From positions 186,001 through 250,000 of the forward strand of contig NZ_VRLT01000059.1 of NCBI RefSeq assembly GCF_008017835.1: a stretch of 64,000 bases of DNA, read 5' to 3'. This document shows positions 2,679 through 37,574 of the stretch, piece after piece. The stretch is from Mesonia sp. HuA40 (GTDB taxonomy: Bacteria > Bacteroidota > Bacteroidia > Flavobacteriales > Flavobacteriaceae). How positions within the stretch are numbered: position 1 is the stretch's first letter; each line of letters opens with the position of its first letter. The translations under genes were made by a program, and so were the position numbers. The notes beneath the pieces were generated by a model. That model searched no databases and was not told the DNA's origin. It worked only from the letters and a program-made list of their open reading frames with translations.

Positions 2679-3763
2679 ATTCAAAAACAATCACTTACGG
2701 AATTTTAAGAGCTGTTGCTATTTTGGTGGGTATAATACTACTGCTTTGGTTTTTATACCAGATTCAATCGGTAATTGCTTTTATTGCCATTGCTGCCGTT
2801 ATTTCTTTAATTGGCAGACCTATGGTATTCTTGCTTACAAAGAAGCTGAAATTCCCAAACCGTTTAGCTGTTGTGTTTGTGCTCTGTGCTGTTTTATGTA
2901 TTATTATAGGTGTGGTTAGTCTTTTTATTCCTATCATAATCCAACAAAGCGAAAATATAGGTCGTATTGACTTTAATGCCTTCAAAGCAGACCTAAACGA
3001 TTTAAATCTACAAATTAAAGCCTATCTTGGAGTTAACGAAATTGATATTCTCACGGGTTTAAAACAAACCGATTTCATTAAGAATTTTGATTTTCAATTC
3101 ATTCCAAACTCCGTTAATTATATTTTTAGTGGTTTAGGTAATGGTATTATTGGCGTATTTTCTATCATTTTTATTTCCTTTTTCTTATTAAGTGATAGTA
3201 AGTTGTTATTAAACAGCATTTTGGTGTTTTCAAACAAAGGAGAAGAATCGCGGTTTAAGTTAATGTTTGAAAAAATAAAAATATTGCTCTCAAGGTATTT
3301 TATCGGTTTAACCTTACAAATCTTAGTATTGTTTATTATTTATACGGTTTTATTGGTCACTTTCGAAGTTGATAACGCCGTTGCCATTGCCTTAATTTGT
3401 GCATTCTTAAACATTGTACCCTATTTAGGCCCTATGGTAGCTGGTATTTTGATGGCACTATTTGTTATTTCGAGTAATTTAGGGGCAGATTTTTCGGCTG
3501 TAATTTTACCCAAGCTTGGTTTTGTAATGGCAGGATATGCCATTGCTCAACTTATTGACAACTTTATCAATCAGCCGCTTATATTCGGAAAAAGTGTGCG
3601 ATCACACCCCTTAGAGATTTTTCTAATTATACTTATCGCAGGATTATTATTTGGCATTTTGGGAATGGTCATTGCCATTCCCGTTTACACAGCAATTAAA
3701 GTGATAGCTAAAGAAACGCTGAGTGAATACAAGATTGTAAAAAAATTAACCAAAGACCTATAA
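2675..3763 (+). CDS. AI-2E family transporter (PerM/YdiK-type permease)
   Basis: A 362-residue polytopic inner-membrane protein of the AI-2E transporter family. Two hydrophobic helices open the protein (ILRAVAILVGIILLLWFLY and the next segment), a soluble stretch follows at about residues 95-140, and a block of helices ends with the conserved region around NIVPYLGPMVAG and LIDNFINQPLIFGKSV. The last half contains the typical HPLEIFLIILIAGLLFGILG. The natural substrate is uncertain for most members; export of small molecules and ion antiport have both been reported in the family. It overlaps its neighbours by 4 bases upstream and 1 base downstream, so it is part of the same operon. Confidence 0.9.
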   Translation: MNSKTITYGILRAVAILVGIILLLWFLYQIQSVIAFIAIAAVISLIGRPMVFLLTKKLKFPNRLAVVFVLCAVLCIIIGVVSLFIPIIIQQSENIGRIDFNAFKADLNDLNLQIKAYLGVNEIDILTGLKQTDFIKNFDFQFIPNSVNYIFSGLGNGIIGVFSIIFISFFLLSDSKLLLNSILVFSNKGEESRFKLMFEKIKILLSRYFIGLTLQILVLFIIYTVLLVTFEVDNAVAIALICAFLNIVPYLGPMVAGILMALFVISSNLGADFSAVILPKLGFVMAGYAIAQLIDNFINQPLIFGKSVRSHPLEIFLIILIAGLLFGILGMVIAIPVYTAIKVIAKETLSEYKIVKKLTKDL

Positions 3764-4950
3764 TGAATCAAGCTATTTTTGAGGAGAACATTCAACGCTT
3801 TATCAAAGAACACGAACAAGACCATTTGCCAGAGTTAATCCTTAAAGGTAGTCCTTTTAAGCAAGTAAGTATACAAGAAATAGCACAGCAAATAGCGGCA
3901 CGAAAAAAAGCAAAATTAAAATTACCTACTTGGTATGCTACCCCAGGCATATATTTTCCTCCACAATTAAATTTAGCACAAACGTCATCAGAAATTACTG
4001 CCGATTACAAGGCTCAATGCGTAAACGGGGATAGCCTAGCAGATTTGACTGGCGGATTTGGCGTCGACAGCTTTTATTTTAGCCGGTATTTTAAAAAAGT
4101 AACACATTTTGAAACGCAAGAAGAATTAGCCAAAATAGCGCAAGCCAATTTTCAGAAACTAAGTGCCCCCAATATAAGCAGCTTGACTACCGATAGTTTA
4201 GCTTATTTAGACCAAACGCAAAACACTTGGGATTGTCTGTATTTAGACCCTGCTCGCCGAGACCACGCAGGGCAAAAAGTATTTAGTCTAGCAGAGTGTA
4301 CCCCTAATATTATAGAACACCTTGATTTGTTATTTTCTAAAACCAATTGTATTCTACTCAAAACATCGCCATTGTTAGATATCAAGTTAGGCTTAAAAGA
4401 ACTAAAAGGAGTGCAACATATACACTGCGTGGCCGTAAACAATGAGCTTAAAGAATTGCTTTGGGTACTTAAAAAAGAACACATAGCAAAATCAACCTTA
4501 CCTCAAGTACATTGTGTAAATTTCTTTTCAACCCACACCGCATTTTATAAGGCCAATCTAGACGAAGAAAGCGGTAGCAAAGCAAGGCTAGGTCCCGTTT
4601 TAAAATATTTATACGAGCCAAATGTTAGTCTATTAAAAGCTGGTTTTTTTAACCACATAAGTCAAGGTTTAGAACTACAAAAGTTAGCACAACATACCCA
4701 TCTTTACACGAGTCAATCTTTAATCGATTTCCCAGGAAGAGTATTTAAAGTAATTCAACGCGAGGCTTTTAATAAAAAAGCCTTTAAAAAACTAAATATC
4801 AAAAAGGCCAATATTAGTACACGCAATTTTCCGTTAAGCGTAGCTCAAATCCGTAAAAAATTCAGTATTCAGGAAGGTGGAGAAATATACATATTTTGTA
4901 TAACCAACCATGAAAATCAAAAAGTTATATTAGTCACTCAAAAGATTTAA
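3763..4950 (+). CDS. Class I SAM-dependent methyltransferase with THUMP-like domain
   Basis: A 395-residue protein whose middle is a Rossmann-fold methyltransferase: the SAM-binding motif I is LADLTGGFGVDSFYFSRYF at about residue 90, motif II ends in an acidic residue (VTHFETQEELA), and the catalytic-loop region is LYLDPARRD. The N-terminal part (QEIAQQIAARKKAKLKLPTW) and the C-terminal region with RNFPLSVAQIRKKF match a Bacteroidota family annotated with THUMP-like and ferredoxin-like domains, which suggests an RNA substrate; this is inference from family and operon context. The start overlaps the preceding stop by one base (TAATG). It is the last gene of the six-gene operon; a repeat-rich gap follows. 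Confidence 0.82.
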   Translation: MNQAIFEENIQRFIKEHEQDHLPELILKGSPFKQVSIQEIAQQIAARKKAKLKLPTWYATPGIYFPPQLNLAQTSSEITADYKAQCVNGDSLADLTGGFGVDSFYFSRYFKKVTHFETQEELAKIAQANFQKLSAPNISSLTTDSLAYLDQTQNTWDCLYLDPARRDHAGQKVFSLAECTPNIIEHLDLLFSKTNCILLKTSPLLDIKLGLKELKGVQHIHCVAVNNELKELLWVLKKEHIAKSTLPQVHCVNFFSTHTAFYKANLDEESGSKARLGPVLKYLYEPNVSLLKAGFFNHISQGLELQKLAQHTHLYTSQSLIDFPGRVFKVIQREAFNKKAFKKLNIKKANISTRNFPLSVAQIRKKFSIQEGGEIYIFCITNHENQKVILVTQKI

Positions 4951-4961
4951 TTAAAATTATT

Positions 4962-5052
4962 TTAGGGCGTTTCCCTTCGGGTCGGGCTTTTCGTTACAAT
5001 CTTTTAGGCTAAACGCCAAAAAGTATTTTCACTGCAATCCCTAACGCGTTTT
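4962..5052. repeat. Palindromic dispersed-type element (GGGCGTTtCCC...CCCTAACGC)
   Basis: The segment opens TTAGGGCGTTTCCC, contains a tight CCC-TTC-GGG hairpin at 4973-4981, and closes GCAATCCCTAACGCG, so its outer ends can pair (TTAGGG with CCCTAA). The middle has further imperfect symmetry, CGTTACAATCTTTT against AAAAAGTATTTTCACTG. From memory, similar GGGCGTTnCCC...GGGCTTTCCGCTACAATC...CCCTAACGC sequences recur between genes in many flavobacterial genomes. Only one copy is visible here, so calling it dispersed rests on recollection. Confidence 0.55.
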
Positions 5053-5269
5053 AGTTTAATTAGCTATTACACATTTGAGTAAACGACTTGCTTCCGTAAA
5101 GAAAAATTAAATCGATCAATTGGTTATTTGATTTATATATATAATTCTATAATCTACCCTTATAAATATAGCGCCCCCCCTAACTTCTCTTATAAAAAAA
5201 CTACGATATTTTAATCATAACCAAATTTAAAAACCCATAAAGCAATATTTTGAAGGTAATTAAAGAAAT

Positions 5270-5379
5270 GGAAAAAGCTGCAGTGCTTGTCTTTACAAAC
5301 TGCTGGGTTTATGTTTACAAACTGCGGTGCTTGTCATTACAAACTGCTGGGTTTATGGTTGCAAACTGCTGGGTTTGTA
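5270..5379. repeat. Five contiguous 22-bp tandem units
   Basis: Units begin at 5270, 5292, 5314, 5336 and 5358. They share a core around CAAACTGCTGGGTTT or CAAACTGCGGTGCTTGTC, and alternate between the two versions, so a 44-bp higher-order period is also visible (GTGCTTGTC at 5283 and 5327). The units touch one another without spacers. An inverted copy of the core, CAGCAGTTT, lies at 5390-5398 and could pair with AAACTGCTG at 5363-5371. Confidence 0.8.
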
Positions 5380-5544
5380 ATCCTAAGCTCAGCAGTTTAT
5401 GCTTAACTTAAAAAATCATCTTATATTAATGAAATTTTATGTTGATATATTTTCTTGATATCTGCTTATTTAAAGTCTAATAATTCGCTATCCAAGGTAA
5501 ATTAGTTAAGTTTTAGTTGACTTATCGCATTTAAAAAATAAAAG

Positions 5545-5552
5545 TATATTTG
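5545..5552 (+). promoter_or_regulatory. Candidate -7 box TATATTTG upstream of the VOC gene
   Basis: An exact match to the Bacteroidota -7 consensus TAnnTTTG, ending 14 bases before the ATG at 5567. A TTG at 5517-5519 is 25 bases upstream, somewhat further than usual for the -33 element, so the assignment is tentative. Confidence 0.45.
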
Positions 5553-5566
5553 CTAAAAAACGAAAA

Positions 5567-6016
5567 ATGGATAAAGATATAAGCGCAAAGCCAAACGAAC
5601 TCGAACCTAAGGTAACCGGTATAGGGGGTATTTTTTTCTTCTCAGAAAACATAGAAAAAACCAAAGAATGGTATGCTCAACATTTAGGATTAAAGGTGAA
5701 CCAATGGGGTTCTAGCTTTGAGTTTAGGAATGCTAATAGGCCTGATGAAATCAATTATTTACAATGGAGTCCTTTTCAAAAAGGAAGCGAATACTTTGAG
5801 CCTTCAAAAAAAGAGTTTATGATCAATTACCGGGTTCAGAATATTGAGGCTATGGTAGACAAGCTTAAAGCTGATGGCATTCAAGTTTTAGATGAAATTG
5901 CCAGTTATGACTACGGCAAGTTTGTACATATTATGGATGCCGAAGGAAACAAAATTGAATTATGGGAGCCTGTAGATCACGTGTTTACGGCAATGGGCGG
6001 CGAGACTACAAAATAA
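5567..6016 (+). CDS. VOC (glyoxalase/bleomycin-resistance fold) family protein
   Basis: A 149-residue protein of the vicinal oxygen chelate superfamily. The paired beta-alpha-beta-beta-beta modules show as GGIFFFSENIEKTKEWYAQH with LGLKVNQWGSSFEF in the first half and YRVQNIEAMVDKLKADG with HIMDAEGNKIELWEP in the second. The ELWEP end carries the Glu that usually binds metal in the second module; the His normally found at the start of the first module is not obvious (GIGGIFFF). Members include glyoxalases, dioxygenases and antibiotic-binding proteins, and the substrate here cannot be told. It appears to be transcribed alone. Confidence 0.85.
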   Translation: MDKDISAKPNELEPKVTGIGGIFFFSENIEKTKEWYAQHLGLKVNQWGSSFEFRNANRPDEINYLQWSPFQKGSEYFEPSKKEFMINYRVQNIEAMVDKLKADGIQVLDEIASYDYGKFVHIMDAEGNKIELWEPVDHVFTAMGGETTK

Positions 6017-6140
6017 TAGATGTACAACAAGTATCTTTATCGTCATTCACAACGCTTATCTAAATTAATAGATTCATTTTACTTTAAGGTTTAAACGCTA
6101 AGGCTTAGTACAAAATGTTGGCTATTTTTATAGATCTTTG

Positions 6141-6614
6141 ATGAAAATATTTCCCGAAATCTCATGGCAATTCCGTTTAATTGACACGAAAGAGCGAAGT
6201 ATAAACCGCTTAAACCGACGCACAGAATATTCTAAGCGGTTATATTCTCAATACACCGATAAATCCTTTCGCGGTGAGGTAAATAGCACACATTTTAAGC
6301 TGATATCAGCTAGCATAGGCAGGGGCGCATTTTGTGTTTTAACAGGCAATTTAAAAGAAAAAGAAGGATCGGTGAAGGTGAAAATACATCCGTTTTTTAA
6401 ATATGCGCTTTATTAATTTTACACTTTACCAATAGTCGGATTTTTTGTAGAGCTTTTACTTGTGCCAGAAAATAACTGGCTCATATTATTTTTGGTTGCA
6501 ATAGGGCAAATTTTATTCATTTGCTATTTGTTTATAGCCTTAACCTTTAGATTATTGGCTAGAGAAAGTCTGCATCGGCTTCGGAATATTCTAGATATAG
6601 AGTTTATCGACTAA
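6141..6614 (+). pseudogene. Small membrane protein gene split by an in-frame TAA
   Basis: From the ATG at 6141 the frame reads 91 codons (MKIFPEISWQFRLIDTKERS and onward, Arg- and Lys-rich) to a TAA at 6414-6416, then stays open in the same frame to a TAA at 6612-6614. The second part encodes two adjacent hydrophobic helices (FYTLPIVGFFVELLLVPEN and WLILFLVAIGQILFICYLF) and a basic tail ending LRNILDIEFID. The two halves look like one protein of about 157 residues with a cytoplasmic N-terminus and a hairpin of two membrane segments, broken by one nonsense codon. Alternatives are a sequencing error or a genuinely short soluble product. Function unknown. TTG at 6138 is also possible as a start. 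Confidence 0.6.
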
Positions 6615-34153: not shown

Positions 34154-36139
34154 ATGCATATCCCTATTTTACAAGACATTTTGATTTTACTGGGGTTTTC
34201 GGTAATTATTGTTTTTTTACTTCAACGCCTTAAAATACCTTCAATTATCGGTTTTTTGTTTACTGGTATCATAATTGGCCCCAGTGTACTCAGTCTGGTT
34301 ACTGCCGTTGAACAAATAGAAATAATTTCTGAAATTGGCGTTATTATGCTTCTTTTTGTCATTGGAATGGAGCTTTCGATAAAACAATTGGCCTCAATAA
34401 AAAAAACAGTCTTTATAGGTGGGGGGCTTCAGGTTTTACTGAGTATTCTAATTGCAGGAAGTTTTTATTATTTTTTGGGGTTTTCTTGGGAGGAATCAAT
34501 TTTTGTTGGATTTTTATTCTCGCTTTCCAGCACAGCAATTGTATTGAGCGTACTCCAAGATCGAAATGAAATAAACACCAATTACGGTAAAAACACGCTG
34601 GCTATTTTGATATTTCAGGATATCATTGTAGTACCCATGATGCTGTTTACACCTATCATTGCCGGTCAATCGGACAATGTTACCCAAAGTATATTGCTAT
34701 TGTTGCTTAAGACAGCTGTCGTGGTTATTATAACCATAATAAGCGCAAAATATGTGGTTCCCAAACTGTTATATGCCGTGGCTAAAACAAGAAGCAAAGA
34801 ACTATTTTTACTTACCACCATAACCATTTGTTTTGCAGTAGCTTTCCTTACCTCTGAGACTGGATTATCGCTAGCTTTGGGTGCTTTTCTAGCGGGACTT
34901 ATTATATCTGAATCGGAATTTAGTCACCAAGCTACCAATATTATATTACCGTTTAAAGAGCTGTTTACGAGTTTTTTCTTTATCTCAATTGGTATGCTGC
35001 TCGATATTAATTTTTTTCTTGAGAATTTCTTAATAATTATATTGGTTGTATTAGCCTTGTTGCTTATAAAATCTTCTTTAATTGCCTTGTGTATTAGGTT
35101 ATTAGGGTATCAAATGCGAACTGCTATTTTAACTGGATTTGCACTTTTTCAAGTTGGGGAATTTGCATTTATACTTTCTAAGGTGGGCATAGAAAATAAT
35201 TTACTCTCAACCACTACAAACCAGTATTTCCTAGCTATTTCAATAGTGTCTATGATGATTTCACCCTTTGTGATTCTGTATGCAAGCCGTTTTACGGATT
35301 CAGTTCTAGGCAACAAACTAGTTCGCGCTCTACAAAAAAATCCGCAACAGCATGAAGAAGAATTAGAAACTGATGATAAAGAATTAAAAAATCATTTGGT
35401 CATTATTGGCTATGGTATTAATGGTTCTAATCTAGCAAAAGCGGCTTATCAGTGTAATATTCCTTTTGTTGTAATTGAGTATAATGCCGAAACGGTAAAA
35501 AGAGAAAAAAAGAATAATATTCCTATTATTTATGGAGATGCAAGTCATTCGCATATATTAGAAAAAGTTAATGTGGTTCATGCAAGGACAGTCGTGATTG
35601 CCATCTCTGATGATAAAGCGACCAAAGCTATAATTGGCACCATACGAAGTTTATCTAAATCTGTGCATTTAATTGTAAGAACTCGATACATAAAACAGAT
35701 CAACCAATTAATTTCATTAGGGGCAGATGAAGTTATACCTGAAGAGTTTGAAACCTCTGTTGAAATTTTCTCTCGGGTAATGCATAACTTCTTGATTCCC
35801 GAAGAAGATATCCATCATTTTGTTGAATACATTCGTGCCGATAATTACGAATTATTACAAAATAAAAAAGAATTGATACGCACTTATAATCCAAAACCGA
35901 CCCATCCAGAATTTAATATAACTTGCGTGCGCGTTATTCGAGATAGTGGAAAATTAATTCAAAAACCCTTATCTCAACTAAATTTACGTGAAAACTTTGG
36001 TGTCAATATATTGGCCATCAAACGCAAGGGAATTATGATAGACAATGTTGGCCCAGAAGAGAAAATTATGCAGCACGATTTAGTCTTCATAAATGGAAAT
36101 CCTGAGAATATTGAGCGTTTTAATAAAGCATTGGTTTAG
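34154..36139 (+). CDS. CPA2 (Kef-type) monovalent cation:proton antiporter with RCK domain
   Basis: A 661-residue K+ or Na+/H+ antiporter of the CPA2 family. Residues 1-380 hold about 12 helices with family motifs (LLFVIGMELSIKQL, FSLSSTAIVLSVLQDRNE, ALGAFLAGLIISESEF, FFFISIGMLLDINFF). Residues about 410-525 are an RCK_N/TrkA-N nucleotide-binding domain (HLVIIGYGINGSNLAKAAYQ, then an acidic residue in VVIEYN), and a TrkA-C domain closes the protein (LRENFGVNILAIKRKG). Layout is that of KefB/KefC and the YbaL group. Gating by nucleotide is expected from the RCK domain. Likely role is K+ efflux and pH homeostasis. Confidence 0.92.
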   Translation: MHIPILQDILILLGFSVIIVFLLQRLKIPSIIGFLFTGIIIGPSVLSLVTAVEQIEIISEIGVIMLLFVIGMELSIKQLASIKKTVFIGGGLQVLLSILIAGSFYYFLGFSWEESIFVGFLFSLSSTAIVLSVLQDRNEINTNYGKNTLAILIFQDIIVVPMMLFTPIIAGQSDNVTQSILLLLLKTAVVVIITIISAKYVVPKLLYAVAKTRSKELFLLTTITICFAVAFLTSETGLSLALGAFLAGLIISESEFSHQATNIILPFKELFTSFFFISIGMLLDINFFLENFLIIILVVLALLLIKSSLIALCIRLLGYQMRTAILTGFALFQVGEFAFILSKVGIENNLLSTTTNQYFLAISIVSMMISPFVILYASRFTDSVLGNKLVRALQKNPQQHEEELETDDKELKNHLVIIGYGINGSNLAKAAYQCNIPFVVIEYNAETVKREKKNNIPIIYGDASHSHILEKVNVVHARTVVIAISDDKATKAIIGTIRSLSKSVHLIVRTRYIKQINQLISLGADEVIPEEFETSVEIFSRVMHNFLIPEEDIHHFVEYIRADNYELLQNKKELIRTYNPKPTHPEFNITCVRVIRDSGKLIQKPLSQLNLRENFGVNILAIKRKGIMIDNVGPEEKIMQHDLVFINGNPENIERFNKALV

Positions 36140-36213
36140 GGATGTGCGTGTGTTTATGTAATATTTAATGATAAAAAAAATATCAAATCTTATAACTTTT
36201 TAAAAATATTTTC

Positions 36214-36221
36214 TATATTTG
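36214..36221 (+). promoter_or_regulatory. Candidate -7 box TATATTTG for the asnA leader
   Basis: Exact TAnnTTTG match 41 bases before the leader-peptide ATG. Initiation a few bases after the box would put the whole leader ORF, the antiterminator and the terminator in the transcript. No good -33 TTG is seen. Confidence 0.5.
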
Positions 36222-36262
36222 ATTATTATTACAACCAACTACAACTAAAATACTACTTAAAG

Positions 36263-36313
36263 ATGTACTTTCTAAATAATAATAACAATAATAATTTAAC
36301 TGCCTCTGGGTAG
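36263..36313 (+). CDS. asnA leader peptide with seven consecutive Asn codons
   Basis: A 16-codon ORF: Met-Tyr-Phe-Leu, then seven Asn in a row (AAT AAT AAT AAC AAT AAT AAT, 36275-36295), then Leu-Thr-Ala-Ser-Gly and TAG at 36311-36313. It lies between a candidate promoter and an intrinsic terminator, 87 bases upstream of asparagine synthetase. The run of codons for the very amino acid made by the downstream enzyme is the hallmark of a ribosome-mediated attenuator leader. The proposed function, inferred from layout: ribosomes stall on the Asn codons when charged tRNA-Asn is scarce. The peptide itself probably has no function. Too short for ordinary gene finders. Confidence 0.85.
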   Translation: MYFLNNNNNNNLTASG

Positions 36314-36354
36314 CGGTATTGTGTATTATTATTTAATCATCTAGCCTGCTACTT
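36308..36354 (+). promoter_or_regulatory. Candidate antiterminator stem of the asnA attenuator
   Basis: GTAGCGG at 36310-36316 can pair with CTGCTAC at 36346-36352 (seven pairs, one G-U), extendable by two G-U pairs to 36308 and 36354. The 3' strand is the 5' arm of the terminator, so the two structures exclude each other. The 5' strand includes the leader stop codon: a ribosome finishing the leader would cover it and favour termination, while one stalled on the Asn codons would leave it free. Pairing read by eye, no energies computed. Confidence 0.65.
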
Positions 36355-36371
36355 TTAGCAGGCTTTTTTTG
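36343..36371 (+). terminator. Intrinsic terminator (attenuator) upstream of asnA
   Basis: A perfect 9-bp GC-containing stem, AGCCTGCTA at 36343-36351 and TAGCAGGCT at 36356-36364, a CTTT loop, and a run of seven T at 36364-36370. It is 30 bases ahead of the asnA ATG and has no upstream gene to end other than the 16-codon leader, since the antiporter gene stops about 200 bases earlier. Confidence 0.92.
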
Positions 36372-36400
36372 TTTATAAACTAATCTAAATCCAATAAATT

Positions 36401-37402
36401 ATGAAAACAGACATTCTAAAAACAGAAACACAATTGCATTTCTTAAAAAAAACTTTCAAGAAGCAATTGGAAAAAAAGTTAAAGCTAACGCCCGTATCGG
36501 CGCCATTGGCTGTTATTGAAAATACTGGAATAAACGATGACCTGAATGGGATTGAAAGATGTGTTCAATTTCCTATTAAAGCCCTAAACGATGAAAAGGC
36601 TGTTGTGGTAAATTCATTAGCAAAATGGAAAAGGCACAGGTTAAAAGAACTAGATTTTAAACCAAACACGGGCATAATCACAGACATGCGTGCAATACGA
36701 CCCGATGAAGATTATAGTCCAATTCACTCTATTTACGTTGATCAATGGGATTGGGAAAAAGTAATTGAAAAAGAAGACCGCAACTTAAAAACCCTCAAAA
36801 AAACCGTAAAAAAGATTTATAAAGCCCTGCTTAAAGCCGAAAAAAAAGTTGAAGATCGTTTTAAAATAAAAACTAAACTACCGCAAGAAATAACGTTTAT
36901 TCACACCGAAGACTTACTACAACGCTACCCACACCTACCAGCCAAGCAAAGAGAAGATAAAGTAGCAAAAGAATATGGTGCTGTATTTTTAATTGGTATT
37001 GGTGGTTCCTTAAGCAATGGCGAGACGCACGATGGCAGAGCGGCAGATTACGATGATTGGTCTACCCCTACTTGTGCTAAATACAATGGTTTAAACGGCG
37101 ATATTTTGGTATGGAATCCCGTATTACAACAAGCCTTTGAATTATCTTCAATGGGTATCAGGGTTGATTCAAAAACATTATTGCAGCAATTGGAAAAACG
37201 AGATCAATTATATAAGAAAGATTATTATTTTCATCAATTGTTACTCAACGATTTATTGATGCCTAGTATGGGCGGCGGTATAGGGCAGTCTCGTGTAGCC
37301 ATGTTTCTATTGAATAAAAAGCATATAGGCGAAGTTCAAAGCAGCATTTGGTCTCCTAAAGTAAGAACAGCACTGCAAGCCCAAAACATTTTTCTATTAT
37401 GA
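36401..37402 (+). CDS. asnA: Aspartate-ammonia ligase (asparagine synthetase A)
   Basis: Makes asparagine from aspartate, ammonia and ATP. The 333-residue protein matches AsnA in length and motifs: FLKKTFKKQLEKKLKLTPVSAPL at the N-terminus, the central VVVNSLAKWKRHRL with class II tRNA-synthetase-like residues, RAIRPDEDYSPIHSIYVDQW, and the C-terminal GGGIGQSRVAMFLL (motif 3 Arg). The gene is single, ending in a shared terminator before a convergent tRNA-Ser. Expression is predicted to be controlled by the Asn-codon leader and terminator just upstream; no AsnC-type regulator is adjacent. Confidence 0.97.
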   Translation: MKTDILKTETQLHFLKKTFKKQLEKKLKLTPVSAPLAVIENTGINDDLNGIERCVQFPIKALNDEKAVVVNSLAKWKRHRLKELDFKPNTGIITDMRAIRPDEDYSPIHSIYVDQWDWEKVIEKEDRNLKTLKKTVKKIYKALLKAEKKVEDRFKIKTKLPQEITFIHTEDLLQRYPHLPAKQREDKVAKEYGAVFLIGIGGSLSNGETHDGRAADYDDWSTPTCAKYNGLNGDILVWNPVLQQAFELSSMGIRVDSKTLLQQLEKRDQLYKKDYYFHQLLLNDLLMPSMGGGIGQSRVAMFLLNKKHIGEVQSSIWSPKVRTALQAQNIFLL

Positions 37403-37483: not shown

Positions 37484-37489
37484 CTTTTG

Positions 37490-37574
37490 CGGAGAAAGAG
37501 GGATTCGAACCCCCGGAGGTGTGACCCTCGCCGGTTTTCAAGACCGGTGCATTCGACCACTCTGCCATTTCTCC
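37490..37574 (-). tRNA. tRNA-Ser (anticodon TGA)
   Basis: Read on the minus strand, GGAGAAATGGCAGAGTGG opens an 85-base tRNA with a 7-bp acceptor stem (GGAGAAA/TTTCTCC), the anticodon arm CCGGTCTTGAAAACCGG (TGA at 37538-37540 in complement), a long variable arm as expected for Ser, and the T-loop GGTTCGAATCC. The discriminator is G and CCA is not encoded (GCA follows). Confidence 0.96.

Follow-up and report, generated by a model that had tools for sequence, protein, structure and literature searches.

Which signal governs transcription of asnA in Mesonia sp. HuA40 is the question raised by a short stretch of DNA directly upstream of this gene, where a small reading frame crowded with asparagine codons is followed by a terminator. 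We addressed this question in a window of 64,000 nt (contig NZ_VRLT01000059.1, positions 186,001-250,000)—the term denoting the whole stretch of DNA analyzed, with all coordinates given relative to it. The answer developed below is that leader and terminator very probably switch asnA on just when asparagine is short. We hold with high confidence, on sequence-level grounds, that the element would be a ribosome-mediated transcription attenuator sensing charged tRNA-Asn and a member of an Asn attenuation regulon of Bacteroidota. A preliminary description had proposed ribosome-mediated attenuation at this site—an interpretation that our analysis supports, and that was incomplete in missing the devices before asnB and gatCAB-aspS, the tandem devices before asnA and the protector helix.

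Leader, terminator and predicted alternative helices upstream of asnA

The features of the element are collected in Table 1. Direct reading confirmed the 16-codon leader ORF and its seven consecutive Asn codons as initially described, and the gene just downstream does encode an asparagine synthetase, recognized as AsnA by two protein families. The frame is kept without indels in the relatives L002 and L003. Six successive AAY codons occur at a single place in the 2.64-Mb genome of the strain, namely the asnA leader (two overlapping matches); the same pattern read backwards, used as a control, gave one match. An RNA model built partly from the window sequence (R1) has one match in this genome. 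The terminator had been described as a perfect 9-bp stem with seven T; the stem holds, whereas the seven T (36364-36370) do not, since the last stem base had been counted among them. Within 701 bp around the element, two terminator-like sites were found against a mean of 0.1 in shuffled sequences, the second being located on the minus strand inside asnA.

Table 1. Features of the asnA upstream element in the window.
Feature	Position	Strand	Basis and remarks
Flavobacterial -7 promoter box match, TATATTTG	36214-36221	+	fits TAnnTTTG; predicted transcription start ~36226, upstream of leader
Leader peptide ORF, MYFLNNNNNNNLTASG followed by stop	36263-36313	+	direct reading; ATG 36263, stop TAG 36311-36313, 16 sense codons
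Predicted protector (1:2) helix	36273-36335	+	Asn run 36273-36290 with 36317-36335; minimum-energy fold
Asn control-codon run (seven), AAT AAT AAT AAC AAT AAT AAT	36275-36295	+	direct reading
Predicted antiterminator	36308-36354	+	36308-36317 (GGGTAGCGGT) with 36344-36346 and 36348-36354; -13.5 kcal/mol; contains leader stop
Intrinsic terminator	36343-36370	+	9-bp stem 36343-36351/36356-36364, 4-nt loop, -13.9 kcal/mol, then T run
asnA, aspartate-ammonia ligase, 333 aa	36401-37402	+	TIGR00669 412.6 bits (cut-off 292.8); PF03590 332.6 bits

The putative promoter box fits the flavobacterial -7 consensus, given in PMC9723704 as TAnnTTTG at -12 to -5. Matches to this motif lie within -110 to +30 of 30 of the 62 Asn leaders, where 5.2 would be expected. 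Just downstream of asnA, a convergent tRNA-Ser gene (TGA) occupies 37489-37574 on the minus strand; elsewhere in the window, a Flavo-1 RNA of unknown function (Rfam RF01705, 50.7 bits) is found at 4976-5069, likewise on the minus strand.

RNA folding predicted alternative helices that share these segments. Folding 36226-36371 to minimum energy (-32.6 kcal/mol) leaves the terminator formed, and the predicted protector helix encloses an inner hairpin—CTGCC at 36300-36304 with GGTAG at 36309-36313—that hides the antiterminator strand; the protector duplex reached a z of -3.2 (p 0.005). When the Asn run was removed, as it would be under a stalled ribosome, the fold of 36296-36356 consumed most of the 5' arm of the terminator. 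The preliminary description had singled out GTAGCGG as the partner of this arm and placed the leader stop codon within it; the motif does lie at 36310-36316 with the TAG inside, within the strand predicted to pair. Against dinucleotide shuffles of the spacer, the antiterminator duplex gave a z of -2.4 (p 0.017, 300 shuffles) or -2.1 (p 0.035, 200 shuffles), and these modest values count against the attenuator reading.

The helices computed for the window match the three states of classical attenuation, states that we infer from these predictions. While the leader is free of ribosomes, its Asn codons would pair downstream, hiding the antiterminator strand, and the terminator would form, leaving asnA off. 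Under scarcity of Asn-tRNA, a ribosome would stall on the Asn run and cover it, thereby freeing GGGTAGCGG; by capturing the terminator's 5' arm, this strand would let the polymerase proceed into asnA. When Asn-tRNA is plentiful, a ribosome reaching the stop codon would cover the antiterminator strand, and the terminator would again form.

Asn-dense leaders before asnA, asnB and gatC

To see how far the arrangement extends, we collected asnA loci from named public contigs (best 80) and from three sets of genomes—16 from the genus, 397 from the family and 395 from the class, among which asnA was found in 5, 30 and 24, respectively. The resulting 135 loci yielded 129 distinct regions with at least 150 nt upstream of the gene, leaving out two copies (L033, L118), four loci with too short a sequence (L022, L031, L042, L074) and one without an asnA match (L135). 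An Asn-rich leader with a terminator precedes asnA in 25 of these 129 regions—the recurrence in relatives that had been set beforehand as a check. Among the 30 asnA genes of the family, a leader accompanies the 10 that are 59-100% identical to the window gene; none was seen for the 20 at 55% identity or less, two of which (L022 and L031) offer too little upstream sequence for a judgment. Named hosts among the public contigs include Mesonia, Hymenobacter, Vaginella and Bacteroidales. The leader peptides diverge outside the Asn codons (MKKSINNNNNNNST, MPILNLNNNNNNYKSPPG, MIFNNNNNNFNNNLNQIRLRKAIIV, MRQFANSLNNQNRNNNLFRHGRLLV and others). Moreover, a script detected two Asn leaders, each with its own terminator, in seven asnA loci (L004, L007, L010, L011, L038, L117, L120), and reading added five more tandem cases (L005, L008, L009, L012, L062); in the window, as in the two relatives closest to it, the gene-proximal attenuator alone has been kept.

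We then scanned 299 distinct upstream regions for ORFs of 8-50 codons in which at least five of eight residues are alike and whose stop is followed by a terminator within 0-90 nt. The set comprised 129 asnA, 130 asnB and 40 gatC regions (40 of 40 found); the asnB regions were 30 loci and 100 further places taken by rank, leaving out G208 (known leader), G096 (contig edge) and the lowest-ranked rows. A dense ORF with a terminator was found in 63 regions (20 of 129 asnA, 18 of 130 asnB and 25 of 40 gatC), and the residue was Asn in all 63 and another residue in none; of the 18 asnB leaders, 10 belong to the 30 best-ranking places and 8 to the 100 added by rank. An ORF of this kind or an Asn leader with terminator was not found in 104 of 129 asnA, 112 of 130 asnB and 15 of 40 gatC regions, a point against the attenuator reading. 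With the terminator condition lifted, other residues occur as well on the forward strand (before asnA, for example, Leu 6, Ile 3 and Ser 3), and dense ORFs on the reverse strand are mostly of Leu and Ile, with one Asn case. The attenuator reading draws support from the fact that the target genes, though unrelated, all provide one and the same amino acid or the corresponding tRNA, and from the variation of the leader peptides outside the Asn codons.

Pairing statistics were obtained for 75 attenuators in 68 loci. The antiterminator beat shuffled sequences at p ≤ 0.05 in 63 of them (26 of 32 asnA, 12 of 18 asnB and 25 of 25 gatC) and was not significant in the other 12. Seven asnA terminators without an Asn leader gave p values of 0.97, 0.53, 0.28, 0.24, 0.13 and 0.63 (L016, L061, L084, L107, L114 and L130) and, against expectation, 0.023 (L095). 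The antiterminator starts 7-31 nt after the Asn cluster (medians of +14, +15.5 and +20 nt for asnA, asnB and gatC), so that the strand would be free under a ribosome stalled there. Covariation of terminator and antiterminator, the second check set beforehand, was borne out in that the own arm outpairs foreign arms (medians of -13.0 and -9.4 kcal/mol), the own arm surpassing more than 90% of the foreign ones in 31 of 75 cases; within gatC this swap test is weak (2 of 25) because the arms share a consensus. The protector helix reached p ≤ 0.05 in 33 of 75 attenuators (15 of 32 asnA, 15 of 25 gatC and 3 of 18 asnB) and is therefore not general. Members within a gene group are related, so none of these counts are independent, and some stems are misplaced in the two alignments (A1 and A2).

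Several leaders carry proline codons near their ends. The second, gene-proximal leaders of L008, L009 and L012 (one genus) and of L062 have PPPG after the Asn run, and these ORFs, which have no stop ahead of the terminator's 5' arm, reach into the terminator or past it. In addition, PP is present in 5 of the 32 scored asnA leaders, and the leader ends in Pro in 12 of 18 asnB, 1 of 32 asnA and 0 of 25 gatC cases. Polyproline and Pro-before-stop contexts slow ribosomes. It is thus conceivable that a programmed pause keeps the ribosome over the antiterminator, and in the four PPPG leaders such a pause may replace the leader stop; alternatively, the C-rich codons may be kept for a purely RNA-level reason.

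The recurrent Pro-rich or Pro-terminal ends also hint at pausing that is independent of Asn, and runs of a single codon strain one tRNA—as would suit a poly-Asn leader that itself slows or arrests ribosomes, with the switch reading the general state of translation (antibiotics, growth rate) instead of Asn-tRNA charging. We consider this highly unlikely, however: asparagine synthesis genes lie downstream in all three contexts, in which leaders dense in another residue were not found. Equally improbable, in our view, is that a riboswitch, a T-box or an RNA-binding protein uses the same terminator and that the peptide is incidental. Terminator-antiterminator switches do serve many ligands, but the position of the antiterminator is set relative to the Asn cluster, and the Rfam gathering cut-offs returned neither T-box nor riboswitch in the window, the matches being the tRNA and Flavo-1. 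Under loose cut-offs (up to E 5), the search of 36140-36420 listed no T-box; its cis-regulatory leader matches belong to the Trp, Phe and Thr leader-peptide families, whose scores of 21.2, 21.3 and 15.7 bits fall short of the gathering values of 41, 55 and 55 bits, respectively.

It is also very unlikely that the terminator merely ends the upstream antiporter gene (34154-36139) and that the Asn-rich ORF arose by chance. In favor of this reading, gene and terminator share a strand, with the terminator coming after the gene, and AAT triplets abound in the AT-rich DNA. Against it, more than 200 bp separate the antiporter stop from the terminator, which follows a promoter-like box and leaves 31 bp to asnA. 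Moreover, before asnA, asnB and gatC alike, the pair of ORF and terminator comes back with Asn and never with a different residue, and six Asn codons in a row occur nowhere else in the genome. An AAT run could be a simple repeat in AT-rich DNA and as such count against the attenuator reading, but it is interrupted by AAC, and its single occurrence in the genome together with the Asn-specific recurrence before three genes led us to reject a chance repeat.

Asparagine routes and their leaders in Flavobacteriaceae

Two RNA models, R1 and R2, were made from the leaders. R1 had matches in 74 of 299 family genomes, and its best 30 places, taken as loci, comprised 7 asnA, 3 asnB, 19 gatC operons and 1 other (L218). 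Among the 19 gatC loci, 17 were read with their leader, L199 was assigned through its downstream gene and L211 through L266 on the same contig. Matches of R1 in G014 (C23, C6) and of R2 in G000 (C11, 146285-146396) were set aside as ordinary terminators behind longer genes with no Asn leader.

The gat operon leader, exemplified by MRNNNNNNNFNNPNL, precedes gatC-gatA-[gatB::aspS]. The first gene encodes a GatC-like protein of 88 aa (TIGR00135 21.1 bits, below the cut-off of 47.1) and the second GatA (TIGR00132 438.5 bits, below the cut-off of 481.1), while the third product, of 1112 aa, matches GatB in its first part (393.3 bits, cut-off 338) and AspRS in its second (708.1 bits, cut-off 443). 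This order, with fusions of 1110-1115 aa, was found in all four loci that reach that far (L249, L250, L251 and L257); the GatB-AspRS fusion gene of L249 spans 2818-6153 and comes third in its operon, behind an Asn leader, gatC and gatA. The AsnB of L255 scored 933.3 bits (cut-off 499). The same predicted device is placed upstream of three routes—AsnA, the unrelated enzyme AsnB and gatC-gatA-[gatB::aspS].

In the genus, an Asn leader precedes asnB in 2 of the 10 loci read (L139, MLVFRLNNNNNNPFP; L142, MLTTNLNNNNQFP), and L146 gave no ORF. Four asnB loci without an Asn leader (L140, L144, L147, L148) have a hairpin of the type AAATCAACTC..GAGTTGATTT near the start, in a variant form in L148, and further GTTGATT copies near the asnB promoter, possibly reflecting other control. 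No Asn leader with a terminator was found before asnS among 16 genus loci; in L183 (G007), an Asn-dense frame (NNKNNKQNQN) with no terminator lies about 109 nt upstream of asnS. The GatB search found none in the 16 genus genomes, so the gat operon is no backup for asnA there.

The three routes rarely coincide. In the 199 family genomes common to the AsnA, AsnB and GatC searches (G000, G010 and G016-G212, a membership inferred from numbering and totals), AsnB was found in 146, GatC in 32 and AsnA in 11. AsnB and GatC occur together in none of the 199 (hypergeometric 3e-23, kinship ignored), nor do AsnA and GatC; AsnA and AsnB share four genomes (G063, G117, G140, G161), where asnA is of the low-identity kind without a leader. 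This exclusion, with its few overlaps, indicates that genomes mostly use one route, each of which can carry an Asn attenuator. Fourteen genomes have none of AsnA, AsnB (E ≤ 1e-100) and GatC, and are possibly Asn auxotrophs or hold divergent enzymes.

A wider proposal, which we see as evenly balanced between right and wrong, is that an asparagine regulon of Bacteroidota would depend wholly on poly-Asn leader translation. Each route—AsnA, AsnB, or GatCAB with a GatB-AspRS fusion making Asn on the tRNA—would have its own attenuator sensing Asn-tRNA, serial pairs would sharpen the response in some lineages, and in a few the PPPG pause would take the place of the leader stop and keep the ribosome over the antiterminator as long as Asn is ample.

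Relation to known attenuators and further leader candidates

Ribosome-mediated attenuation is textbook knowledge for Trp, His, Thr, Ilv and Phe. With the trp, his, thr, ilv and phe attenuators, the Asn leader shares a short ORF with codons for the product amino acid, a terminator before the gene, a competing antiterminator and a stop codon at the latter and, in the window, a predicted protector helix. It differs in its control codon, Asn, in its targets—asnA, asnB and gatCAB-aspS—and in that no Rfam family covers the window element at gathering score. T-boxes precede asparagine genes in many Firmicutes, where genes of the same types would thereby respond to uncharged tRNA-Asn, whereas here the translation of a leader ORF would replace direct tRNA binding. 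The tandem asnA leaders have a parallel in mgtCBR of Salmonella, where, according to PMC3641672, two leader ORFs in one 5' region are each tied to their own stem-loop switch; mgtCBR, however, senses ATP and proline, whereas both asnA leaders carry Asn runs.

For Flavobacterium psychrophilum, of the same family, 'strong clues' have been reported that leader peptides attenuate operons for amino-acid biosynthesis; the section concerned names pheA, hisG, ftsY, acsA, alaS and rimP elements, pheA and hisG among the conserved ones, and no asparagine gene, and words beginning with 'asparagin' occur nowhere in the main text (PMC9723704). The available text of PMC2965389 likewise has no asparagine case (no word beginning with 'asparagin' and one beginning with 'asn'). 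An Asn-specific ribosome-dependent attenuator was not found by our full-text literature search, which points to an Asn control circuit not described in the literature searched. The main reservation concerns Lopatovskaya et al. 2010, which reportedly surveys attenuation in amino-acid and aminoacyl-tRNA operons, lay outside that search and may have predicted some cases.

Should the proposed mechanism hold, a major phylum would have a means of reading Asn-tRNA charging directly, and non-homologous enzymes that make one product would be under a single regulatory logic. The position of an Asn leader upstream of the gat operon agrees with tRNA-dependent synthesis of Asn and would then support, on functional grounds, a role of the GatB-AspRS operon in supplying asparagine in Flavobacteriaceae. 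According to PMC4206432, AsnRS, GlnRS and GatCAB occur together without an Asn synthetase in 18 of 547 genera, Bacteroidetes included, and whether tRNA-dependent Asn synthesis takes place is left open there for many genera with AsnRS, GlnRS and GatCAB. Serial attenuators for one signal, in turn, lead to a simple prediction on the steepness of the response.

Reading 30 loci matched by R2 gave 4 asnA loci, 6 resembling Thr/Ile or Phe leaders and 20 with no evident leader, so weak matches of the RNA models are mostly due to chance. In five loci (L227, L228, L241, L245 and L247), frames with Thr and Ile codons stand before a AAGCCTTCC-type terminator and a gene starting MKxLKFGGTSVG—presumably, by this motif, an aspartokinase-homoserine dehydrogenase—and the frames look like Thr/Ile attenuators in Bacteroidota. 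Finally, L231 has a leader-like ORF, MQKQLNNYFFFFNAMR, with a AAGCCTTCC-type terminator, reminiscent of a Phe leader.
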